From: Malania oleifera
Taxonomy: Eukaryota > Streptophyta > Magnoliopsida > Santalales > Ximeniaceae
NCBI RefSeq assembly: GCF_029873635.1
Contig: NC_080428.1
Location: 67,327,601-67,391,600, forward strand
Reading direction: 5' to 3'
Length of the DNA: 64,000 nt
In this document: piece after piece, positions 12,567 to 56,838 of the stretch
How the letters are laid out: each line of letters begins with the position of its first letter
How positions within the stretch are numbered: position 1 is the first letter of the stretch
Position numbers and translations under genes: made by a program
The notes under the pieces: generated by a model
The model's database searches: none
What the model was told of the DNA's origin: nothing
Seen by the model: only the letters and a program-made list of their open reading frames with translations

Positions 12567-14629
12567 TGTAGCGACCTGCTATTTAACTGGGGTTTTTTTT
12601 TTTTTTTTTTAATACTATAACATTTAAAATGTTCTAATACCATACTGGATTAAACTCAATCATCAACCTAACCAACAAGAAGTAGAAATCAACTAAACAT
12701 AACCATACGTAGTTATATACAATACCAGAGTGCTAAAGTTTTTTTCAAAATATACATATATGTCTATTTTACAGAATACCCTCAATTGGTTAGGGCTATA
12801 CAAAAATACTCCCAAAAATACTCACATTACTGTTAGGGCAATACTGAGGTCCCTTTATCTACTCGCCTGATCTGCTCGCCTACCTCGATCACCTGAAAAA
12901 AAATGTTAAAGTAATTGGGATGAGTCAACACTCAGTAAGACGAAATATGTTATTACTAATGTGTGACAAATGAGTTACAATACTATGAAAATCTATTACT
13001 ATATAGTCATATATCACTGAATTTGTAAAGTACAATACCAGTAATATAATCTTCATCTTTTATCTGTTGCTTAACATTTCTGTACTTTAGGTTTCTACTC
13101 AAAATACTTCTAATATATATATATATATATATATATATATATATATTCTGTTTCTGTAAACCTGTATAAATATAGTAATAACTGTAAACTTCCATGTGGA
13201 TAACTGTGTGTCATGATTTAACCCCTCATCACCGGGTTGTACGGCCCGTAGGCGGGATTTACCCTGAGTGATCAACCAGGAATAAATCACTATATTCCAT
13301 AGTCTGATCAGCCCGCCTCAACCCATATCTGATGGGGAGCATGTCCACTCGTGGGCTCTATGCGATCGACCTTTATACCACGTATTATCTGAATAGGTGG
13401 TTACACTCTATTTACTGTATGTAACTACGGTACCATACTCTGTAAACTGTATGGTCCAACGGGGTCTGATACTATATAATACATCTCTATATACAACTAT
13501 ATGTTTTACCATAATTCTGTAATAACTGTATAAACCATGACGCTATGGAAAACTATATCTATATCAATTGTGTTTCTGTAATTAACTGTAAATCTGTATG
13601 TCATGGTATTATAAAACTGTATAATCATGGTATTTCTGTAATTGCTGTAAAATATATTCACTTTCTATATATTCCGTAAAACATAACTCAGGAAAATACT
13701 ATAAAACATATGTTTATACTATATCTATATTCTCAAGTCATACAGTAATTCTAAAACATATTAATCATACTTGATAAACTGTATAAATCTTTACTGTGAA
13801 TAATACTCTGGTAGAACATTTTTAATTTTATCCTAAAATCATACTCAAATAACCTACCATAACATATTTCCCTTACTTGATTTCTAATAAAACCCTCCTA
13901 CTGTAACGGGTCCTACACCCGCAAGGTTCTCCACTCAACACCCTGAAAACCATAAATCTTAGAACAAAACATTACTATTTCTACGTCTATTACATTTCTT
14001 ACAACTTCTGAAAACCCAAATTCCAAATAAAAGACCTTACTTTAGATTTGAAATGAATTCTGACTTCGTTCCACTAACGATCCGCTCCGGCAGACTTGAA
14101 GAGAACTCCACCAGGAGTGTCGTGGTGGCCTCAGATCATCGATCTGGTGATTGACAAGATCGAAATCGAAGAGAGATAGAATAGCGGTCGTAGGAGGGAG
14201 GGAGGGAGGGAGAGAGAGAGAGAGAGAGAGAGAGAGAGAGAGAGAGGAGAGAGCGGCGCTGTATTTCTGAATTCATTCAAAGTTTTGCACTATTTATACT
14301 GTAGGATTCATTGATGAGCCACGTCACCTCGTTGACAAGTCCTGTAGAAAGTTCGTTGATGAATATACACCCTCGTCGATTAATTTCAGACCTCCAAAAA
14401 TTCCTCTCTCGGTATCATCTTGTCGACGAGATGGTACTTCGTTGACGAGGTCCTGAAGAACCCTCTTCGACGAAATCCTTGTGTTCGTCGACGAGGCTTG
14501 CAGAAATTTCTTGAAATTATCACCTCCAAAATGCAATGTCATCGACGAAGTCAGTTACCTCCTTCTGTTACTGATTCCATTTCCCTCCCTTTTTAGTATT
14601 TAAATACCATTATTACTCGGGTTGTTACA
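12567..14629 (-). mobile_element. Solo LTR, family A (Gypsy)
   Basis: A 2063-bp LTR without an internal region, bounded by TGTAGCGACC and GTTGTTACA and flanked by the exact 5-bp duplication GCCAG (12562-12566 and 14630-14634). Relative to element A's LTRs it is in reverse orientation. It contains a TA microsatellite (13113-13146), a GGGAGG/GA tract (14190-14247), a TATA-like TATTTATA (14291-14298) and the TCGTCGACGA palindrome array at 14315-14550. It arose by recombination between the two LTRs of a former full element. It sits inside the decayed minus-strand host gene. Confidence 0.9.
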
Positions 14630-14634
14630 GCCAG

Positions 14635-14830
14635 CTTCCACATCGATACAGAAAGGAGCCTTCAGAACATGGAAATCTTCGTCATCACCAATAGTGACAA
14701 CAGTATATGATTTGCATTCTTTTTTCTCCTTTCCACTCACTTTCATTTGAGGTTTCAGAATGGAGGAGATATCTTCAGAACACTTCACCGTTCCTTTCCT
14801 ATAGTCAGAGAAATCAAAATTCAGTGAGTG
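14635..14830 (-). pseudogene. Decayed host coding region, part 2 (unrecognised)
   Basis: On the minus strand, an open stretch contains KCSEDISSILKPQMKVSGKE and VTIGDDEDFHVLKAPF and ends CIDVEAG at the solo LTR. The frame carries on after the LTR as HMNISFYSHVLTARALQL. This shows one former exon of a host gene split by the insertion. The family is not recognised. Whether the gene was already dead before insertion cannot be told. Confidence 0.45.
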
Positions 14831-55600: not shown

Positions 55601-55812
55601 GGGGGTGCTTGTACTTTCTCCTCGCGTAACCAAACTCCCGAACCTAACTCTGATAATGTAGACCTATTTTACCCCTAACGGGGTAGTCATCACGTGTTCT
55701 AACCACACTAAAGGTTAGTGGCGACTCCGACATTCCAATATTTTTCCCTGAAAATTAAAATTGATTTTAATTTCGCCGCCCGGGGCACACACGCTCCCGG
55801 GACGTCGCGACA
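52652..55812 (+). repeat. 3' LTR of element C
   Basis: A 3161-bp LTR, very AT-rich. Positions 52697-53085 are dominated by TTA/ATT repeats. A TATA-like TTTTTATATAAC lies at about 53172-53183, followed by a C/T-rich leader-like segment (53190-53770) much richer in GC than its surroundings. A TTA tract lies at 55070-55114. The last 200 bp contain GTGGCGACTCCGACATTCC. The 260-codon ORF at 53192 starts in the presumed leader and runs into AT-rich sequence, so I do not call it a gene. Confidence 0.75.
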
Positions 55813-56838
55813 CTCATTACGTGGAACAAATTCGGAACTGCGTTCGTACCAGCATTTAAACCAATCACACGTACATGCATGCTCATATAACTAAACAAAC
55901 CACACCCATTTGGTAATCTAAAATCATGATTTTCCAAACATATATACAGTTTAAAACAAGTCAAGGCACAACCATCCTCATAACACATTATAAATCAACA
56001 TATACGCTTGGTTTTCAACAAAACCAGGGATGCAACCCGTCACCCCCTTTTTCCCAAAACTGTAATCATGAAAAACCCATAGTTTTTCCCGTTAGACCCC
56101 CCCAAATGAGTAGTCAAAACATACACAGGACCGTGAACCACAATTCCACCGAGTTCAATTTCGAAAATAACCGATATAAACACAATTCCCCTTACCTTTC
56201 CCCAAATAGCAAATCCTGAACTCTAAGGCCCCTAAACAGTGAACTGAGTTCCAAAACCTACAATCAACTGTACATAAAGTACTCACAACGCTGTTCTCTA
56301 CTAAACTACCAGATAAAAAAAGAAAACCGAGCCTTACCTCGATTTTAAGCCGAAACCCGAAATTGGCTGAATCGAAAATCTGATCCATAGAACTTGTAGA
56401 GAATCCTTCCACAATCCTCATGGTAACTTCAGATTAACGATTCTCGTGACGAACGATGAAGAAATCTAGAGAGATGGAGATTAGGGAGAGTTTTAGAGAG
56501 ATAGAGAGAAAATATTTGAGTTTTCTTAGCTTGGAAGTAATGAAACTTCTATTTATAGCCCTCTGACCCGGCCACTTCTCGTCGACGAATTGCATCCTCA
56601 TCAACAAGGCTCTATAGTCTTCTCATCTCGAGACCAAGACCTCGTCGACAAGTCTGGGATCTCTGATTTTTCGAAACCCCTTGGCTTCTCCTCGTCGACG
56701 AACCTTTGAACTTCGTCGACGAGAAATGTGAGGCCTTTGTCGACGAACTCAGGCTTCGTCGACGAAGAAGCCTGTTTAATTACCTTTTTACCCCTCTCTT
56801 ATTTATTTAACCCATATATCACGGTTCGATTTCTTACA
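55813..56838 (-). repeat. Partial 5' LTR of element B
   Basis: Matches 44412-45425 closely. It carries the TATA box (56549-56558) and palindrome array (56577-56768) and ends TTTCTTACA next to the TTTTG duplication. The part beyond the element C insertion is missing. Confidence 0.8.

Follow-up and report, generated by a model that had tools for sequence, protein, structure and literature searches.

Palindrome arrays beside the TATA-like box in long terminal repeats of Malania oleifera: a putative promoter-proximal enhancer of a Ty3-type retrotransposon lineage

In the tobacco Ty1/copia element Tnt1, the U3 part of the long terminal repeat (LTR) carries two experimentally supported promoter boxes, the palindromic BI and the tandemly repeated BII. 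The symmetry of Tnt1 box I is mentioned in the available part of PMC2829016, where the function of the repeated motifs (RM boxes) in Sirevirus LTRs is described as proposed and unproven. According to the available part of PMC10760457, palindrome clusters in maize Sirevirus LTRs attract small RNAs. Here we examine a 64,000-nucleotide stretch of the Malania oleifera genome (assembly GCF_029873635.1, contig NC_080428.1, forward-strand positions 67,327,601 to 67,391,600; hereafter the window), in which eight LTRs each carry an array of the palindromic 10-mer TCGTCGACGA next to a TATA-like box. From the sequence we judge it probable that these arrays serve as a promoter-proximal enhancer of a Ty3-type, probably Del/Tekay chromovirus, lineage of LTR retrotransposons, with each site bound by a dimeric protein. 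The observations behind this are the position of the arrays, their spacing, the conservation of the sites over their spacers, and the CpG type of the changes.

Position and spacing of the arrays

The window has 65 matches to TCGTCGACGA (up to 2 mismatches, overlapping ones counted), compared with 8.48 ± 3.04 expected from 100 shuffles, of which the maximum was 16. Only three matches lie outside the arrays, at 10274, 11011, and 12218. The eight arrays comprise 56 non-overlapping sites at the same tolerance, 5 to 9 per array, and the 17 exact sites of the window are all inside LTR arrays. A sequence-only reading of the window had nominated eight arrays, and the scan at up to 2 mismatches recovered each of them at its place. 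That reading also had every array directly preceding a TATA-like box, which is what we find, the box (score 8 or 9) being on one flank only in 8 of 8 LTRs and 9, 11, 21, or 30 bp past the last recognised site. In the array at 14 kb, the 30-bp stretch before the TATA holds a decayed site with 3 mismatches, 9 bp from the box.

The 1.49-Gb assembly contains 20,272 exact pairs of the form TCGTCGACGA-(8-20)-TCGTCGACGA, and 0 of the pattern read backward, a control that has no CpG and hence is not matched. From the matches listed on one contig (C1) we drew 40 stretches, half of them 9.9 kb and half 1 kb long, and added locus L057. Defining an array as at least 4 sites with gaps of up to 75 bp gives 60 arrays, of which the window supplies 8 and the sampled loci 52, and none was lost through nearness to the end of a stretch; 57 of the 60 could be oriented by their TATA, and the 3 unoriented ones are excluded from oriented counts. 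The same pair pattern has matches in 53 loci of IMG/VR, where all distances are multiples of three, and these were set aside as coding DNA. Their GC content, for the 33 loci with a printed value, was at least 0.56 in 31 and 0.40 and 0.48 in two; in the other 20 of the 53 it was not under the 0.48 limit.

The positional link to TATA extends to this larger collection. A TATA score of at least 8 within 50 bp occurs on the better flank of 46 of the 60 arrays and on the worse flank of 0 of 60, where 5.9% of 4000 random 50-mers reach a score of 8 and the chance for the better of two sides is about double that. The distances from last site to TATA are clustered, with 28 of 57 arrays at 8-9 bp, 9 at 11-12 bp, 13 at 18-22 bp, and 7 at 29-31 bp, this last group being what one lost site would give. 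On the other side of the array, the LTR-start motif (up to 2 mismatches) is found in the 400 bp upstream in 49 of 57 cases and downstream in 1 of 57, as compared with 4 of 57 for random stretches from the same loci. The LTR start is mostly 60-115 bp ahead of the first array site.

The LTRs of the window fall into families A and B. Within family A, the long stretches over which the 41-kb LTR can be aligned with the 14-, 26-, 31-, and 37-kb LTRs are about 66-72% identical. The family A LTRs at 41 and 26 kb can be aligned to the family B LTR at 45 kb only at the arrays, where the alignable stretches reach at most 34 and 68 bp; the module has been kept across diverged LTR families, as had been proposed. 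The two families had also been credited with different ends; at the 5' end both start with versions of TGTARNRACCCGAA.

Spacing within the arrays is quantised. The sites had been described as 25-40 bp apart, a figure that does not hold when measured start to start: among 369 neighbour distances, 175 are at 19-21 bp, 94 at 24-25 bp, 45 at 45-47 bp, 11 at 50-51 bp, and only 2 at 26-39 bp. The pattern over the 60 arrays is of steps of about 20 and about 24.5 bp, plus one gap of 45-51 bp. Read toward the TATA, the spacings are 56, 20, 24, 19, 47, 20, 24, 21 in the 41-kb LTR and 55, 24, 19, 47, 20, 24, 21 in the 31-kb LTR. One sampled array of 13 sites (L084) has the spacing pattern 20-24-20-47 twice in succession, which suggests that a block of some 111 bp was duplicated as it grew.

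Two further boxes accompany the sites. The pattern TACCGRG (up to 1 mismatch) occurs at a constant offset in 28 of the 45 gaps of 45-47 bp, versus 2.3 in shuffled gaps, and a search at five offsets for a decayed site hidden in the long gap (gaps of 43-46 bp) mostly found none. The pattern TGACGTGKC (up to 1 mismatch) occurs in 25 of 48 TATA-proximal spacers versus 3 of 127 other spacers of 19-21 bp; in its ACGT core it resembles bZIP sites. Both patterns were written after viewing these arrays, and their counts are descriptive rather than independent tests. A more ambitious proposal, which we hold to be rather unlikely, is that the spacing is itself a code: sites paired at two helical turns, a step of 24.5 bp from pair to pair, and one box-bearing gap would form a geometry read by a cooperative complex of several dimers, of a host factor or one coded by the lineage, that escapes or senses CpG methylation, the geometry being kept across LTR families that otherwise hardly align.

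Conservation, folding, and the candidate binding protein

The 445 sites contain 314 substitutions, 274 of which are transitions at the three CpGs, in agreement with the earlier suggestion that the differences reflect CpG decay. Compared slot by slot, spacers have an identity of 0.35-0.57, with 0.71 for the 21-bp TATA-proximal spacer, and sites, which were required to have up to 2 mismatches, have 0.90-1.00 at the four non-CpG positions and 0.72-0.92 at the CpG positions. Anchoring on the gap box drops the motif requirement on the site, the loci staying the same and no gap alignment being made. Among 38 matches to a 2-mismatch version of the box, the 10-mer just before it has up to 1 mismatch in 34, 3 in one, and 8-9 in three. 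The 35 homologous copies so anchored have a pairwise identity of 0.89 within the site, compared with 0.36 for the 10 bases preceding it and 0.43 for the 18 bases after the box, and 21 of the 22 changes in the sites are CpG transitions. A still looser box with 3 mismatches gave 364 matches and was rejected as a motif-free test, being swamped by chance matches.

The CpG observed/expected ratio is 1.87 in arrays, 0.72 in spacers, and 0.70 in whole loci. In silenced DNA a CpG-dense sequence would be expected to erode more quickly than what lies around it, yet the 10-mer is kept beyond the spacers, which argues for selection in copies that were still transposing. The same measurements bear on the idea that the arrays are a neutral relic, arisen by tandem duplication in one element and spread by transposition, with no present function. 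Homology by descent, seen in the common LTR start and in the gap box at the same offset in those 28 of 45 gaps, is what such a relic would exhibit, but a CpG-rich 10-mer and its spacing would hardly be expected to stay while most of the spacers drift as far as they have, nor would the CpG ratio be expected to differ between arrays and spacers as it does. The relic explanation is disfavoured, and we consider it improbable.

If the arrays are a promoter-proximal enhancer, each dyad-symmetric YTCGTCGACGAR would be a putative site for a dimer-binding protein. The sequence-only reading had suggested a dimeric site, and the dyad symmetry is compatible with that. The protein would most likely be a CpG-methylation-sensitive transcription factor of the host, and it would act jointly with two boxes, the one in the central gap and the bZIP-type one, with its ACGT core, at the TATA-proximal site. 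Descent of the module from a single ancestor, and its retention in copies that continued to transpose, would account for the fixed distances between sites and TATA, and copies once silenced would then have lost sites through deamination of methylated CpG. Binding, the dimer, activation, methylation and its effect, and the identity of the protein are the parts of this scheme that we infer.

The bases flanking the 10-mer had been said to match and so to extend many copies to 12-bp palindromes. A pyrimidine before and a purine after is the rule (342 of 374 sites with up to 1 mismatch), and complementary combinations make up 53.7% versus 47.1% expected (z 2.6), so that there is a slight excess and not a strong signal; the outer bases also depend partly on the slot, T..A enclosing 30 of the 32 pairs on the downstream side of the gap. 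Within the 10-mer, 9 of the 71 doubly changed sites have their two changes on symmetric positions, where 10.4 are expected, and 7 of the 9 are complementary. The double changes are thus not preferentially symmetric and the half-sites decay independently, as expected of DNA sites. Taken as a whole, what stands of the sequence-only interpretation is the arrays in LTRs, their link to TATA, the kept module, and the CpG decay; the 25-40 bp spacing, the different 5' ends, and strong outer-base matching do not stand.

An alternative is that the arrays work at the RNA level, the palindromes pairing into a row of hairpins in transcripts of the 3' LTR or in antisense transcripts, which would be cut into small RNAs or would serve dimerisation or packaging, with the spacing setting stems and loops. 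Folding of 110-nt windows moved by 10 nt gives a median best energy of −42.6 kcal/mol for 57 arrays, with 67% below the −40 limit taken from PMC10760457. Control stretches (111) are at −24.1 with 0% below the limit, and arrays in which the sites alone were scrambled are at −30.2 with 2%, so the arrays are far below both controls, and one array, in the 41-kb LTR, scores z −4.8. The attraction of small RNAs to the maize Sirevirus palindrome clusters, as far as the available part of that article describes it, is in the same direction. On the other hand, any array of palindromes would fold.

A more discriminating measure is whether neighbouring sites covary. In pairs 20 bp apart, the outer bases are complementary more often than expected, at 65% versus 48% for the first, 43% versus 31% for the second, and 35% versus 29% for the third, and the excess persists when near-alike arrays are thinned out to leave 42 of the 57 (63% versus 48%, 40% versus 32%, and 34% versus 28%) and within slot strata; pairs 24 bp apart have no such excess. 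Changes at positions that would pair between neighbour sites are below expectation, 10 versus 13.1 at 20 bp and 4 versus 7.1 at 24 bp, and the lack of preference for symmetric positions among the double changes noted above also speaks against hairpins. The outer-base percentages come from 175 pairs. With slots matched by homology (108 pairs), complementarity of the outer bases is 15 of 28 upstream of the gap, where 15.1 are expected, and 31 of 32 downstream versus 29.1 (p 0.03) in bases that are nearly invariant; a clear excess is seen for the TATA-proximal pair alone, in which the families are mixed (24 of 48 versus 17.6 for the first base, 31 versus 17.8 for the second).

Outer-base covariation is therefore unsafe support for hairpins, and the signals of selection on pairing are mixed, while the RNA hairpin potential is strong. 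We rank protein binding to DNA first and regard a role in RNA as unlikely; the folding would be a by-product of protein sites in DNA, one that may still feed small RNAs.

Alternatively, the element lineage might itself encode the binding protein, an anti-silencing factor being one example. VANDAL elements of Arabidopsis have an anti-silencing factor with motif arrays. An arrayed CpG-rich motif confined, as far as seen, to one element group, with every exact site of the window inside an LTR array, is what this explanation would lead one to look for, but no candidate frame was found for the protein: within 6 kb upstream of the oriented arrays in the 9.9-kb loci there is one open stretch of at least 250 aa, of 262 aa. 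We consider a lineage-coded protein very improbable. With only one such stretch, the sampled copies look old or partial.

Several points weigh against the enhancer with its dimer-bound sites. No clearly active element was seen among the 9.9-kb loci, their longest upstream open stretch being the 262 aa just mentioned, and 14 of the 60 arrays are without a TATA score of 8. Conservation is overstated, since most sites were called through the very motif under study, at up to 2 mismatches, and the 52 arrays from outside the window were sampled through exact pairs within the opening 2.6 Mb of a single contig. A role in RNA would also be consistent with the strictness of the spacing, with the strong hairpin potential, and with the covarying outer bases of pairs 20 bp apart. 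Finally, no factor for the motif was found in the literature, the only place searched, where the motif combined with DAP-seq yielded nothing among the records available.

As for young LTRs, self-comparison of 20 loci turned up a single array-bearing LTR pair (L073), 95% identical, in which 6 of 8 and 3 of 8 sites are exact. The two copies, at 2771-5142 and 6698-9046 of that locus, enclose no more than about 1.5 kb, in which there is a zinc-knuckle piece of gag-like character, and this is a probable non-autonomous or deleted element.

Element class and layout of the window

The Ty3-type integrase domain SH3_Tf2-1 lies ahead of array-bearing LTRs in the window (before the family B LTR at 45 kb, LG) and in three sampled loci (L060, L070, and L072). 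The integrase C-terminus comes last in pol, before the 3' LTR, and an RT_RNaseH domain is also present, which is not the Ty1/copia arrangement of Sireviruses. On this domain order, the elements of both LTR families are Ty3-type. Membership in the Del/Tekay chromoviruses is likely. In those elements a chromodomain follows the integrase C-terminus, immediately ahead of the polypurine tract and 3' LTR; a Chromo match in another sampled locus (L074) is weak, at E = 0.0019 and below its cut-off, and a chromodomain-like piece in the window has no Pfam match up to E = 1.

The eight LTRs of the window probably go back to six insertions, of which three are solo LTRs, two are represented by LTR pairs, and one by an LTR piece. 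The solo LTRs are all of family A and on the minus strand. LA (12567..14629, 2063 bp) has an exact 5-bp duplication, CTGGC, and a minus-strand array at 14329..14548 with 8 sites of up to 2 mismatches, the extra 3-mismatch site beside the TATA lying beyond these bounds. LC (29675..31691, 2017 bp) likewise has an exact 5-bp duplication, ATGCT, and its array (31386..31605, minus) has 8 sites with TATAAATA 9 bp past the final one. LE (39682..41636, 1955 bp) has flanks sharing ATTT (4 of 5 bp), and its array (41321..41561, minus), the one with the fold score of z −4.8, has 9 sites and the TATA-like box TATAAGTA at 9 bp. The family A piece LD (37282..37897, minus; bounds approximate, the far end not found) adjoins the RNase H region of a plus-strand element, and its array (37691..37829, minus) has 5 sites, or 6 including a 3-mismatch site, with a TATA-like box at 11 bp.

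That plus-strand element is probably bounded by LB and LF, whose RNase H piece at 37900..38241 (plus) matches Pfam RT_RNaseH with E = 2 × 10−23. LB (25880..27900, plus), of a second subfamily of family A, is the probable 5' LTR, and LF (41939..43620, plus), which follows a polypurine tract, is the probable 3' LTR; both have approximate 3' ends, and the two are 84-88% identical in three pieces. The array in LB (25962..26133, plus) has 7 sites and that in LF (42020..42187, plus) has 6, or 7 including a 3-mismatch site, each with a TATA-like box at 9 bp.

In the family B pair, LH (55810..56838, minus) is the probable 5' LTR and LG (44420..45425, minus), after a polypurine tract, the probable 3' LTR, with 87.6% identity across 1017 bp and approximate lower ends for both. 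The LG array (45187..45355, minus) has 7 sites and the LH array (56579..56765, minus) 6, or 7 including a 3-mismatch site, with TATAAATA at 21 bp in each. The integrase C-terminal piece of this element (45818..46294, minus), just upstream of its 3' LTR, matches SH3_Tf2-1 with E = 3 × 10−23.

Between LG and LH, a 66-bp unit is repeated in tandem for 40.8 copies with 94% matches (49435-52129), with long open stretches in several frames, and it is adjoined by tandem arrays of a 46-bp unit (52127-52448, 7 copies) and a 19-bp unit (48428-48960, 28 copies). Elsewhere in the window there are a 79-bp tandem array at 15304-15943; an inverted, related repeat set at 20624-21823, near 21.5-21.8 kb; a 92% direct repeat at 19627-20038 and 23157-23568; and, at 1071-4752 and 5991-8946, some 3 kb duplicated in direct orientation, broken into pieces that are 84-91% identical. 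An open stretch of 217 aa at 22439-23092 (minus) is gag-like by eye and has no Pfam match. A tRNA search of the window found none.

Comparison with described LTR promoters

The sequence-only reading knew of no named plant enhancer with this exact sequence, and the literature on the motif agrees as far as titles tell, with nothing on LTRs among the titles available. The closest likenesses are of design. The U3 region of Tnt1 likewise has short repeated, symmetric cis elements upstream of its TATA, which differ from the present arrays in sequence, element class, and copy number.

The Del LTRs described in the available part of PMC4029996 probably belong to the same lineage. They measure about 2 kb in several groups, as do the present solo LTRs of 1955-2063 bp, and their 5' CpG islands are likewise CpG-rich DNA upstream of the TATA. 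A conserved LTR start is described for Del, and the present LTRs have a start motif of their own, upstream of 49 of 57 arrays. The Del island differs in being variable in sequence and length, and it is absent from groups I, which holds all the eudicot elements, and II; word stems for palindromes or tandem repeats (palindrom-, tandem) do not occur in the main text of that article.

What the arrays offer is a single CpG-dense palindromic motif beside TATA with which to probe the factor that drives a large plant transposon lineage. The motif could also help to show whether methylation blocks binding, and whether palindromes cost an element through silencing by small RNAs. Dispersed LTRs of this kind may seed the genome with ready-made promoter modules.

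The nearest parallel is in the Sireviruses. In the available part of PMC2829016, RM boxes are likewise CpG-rich palindromes, several copies of which cluster shortly upstream of a conserved TATA, and CGGTCGACCG, an RM of a Vitis Sirevirus, has the GTCGAC core in common with the present motif. The palindromes in the available part of PMC10760457 likewise lie in the regulatory part of the LTR and have miRNA-like folding energy. RM boxes have a CGG-CCG core in all but Tnd-1, whereas TCGTCGACGA has neither CGG nor CCG; their cluster starts 200-400 bp into the LTR, whereas the present arrays mostly start at about 60-115 bp; and the available text of PMC2829016 gives no spacing rule corresponding to the strict steps of 20 and 24.5 bp and the gap with its box. 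RM boxes belong to Ty1/copia elements and the present arrays to Ty3-type ones, and the comparison thus extends a Sirevirus-type promoter design to Ty3-type elements, in a genome with more than twenty thousand (20,272) exact neighbouring pairs of the motif.

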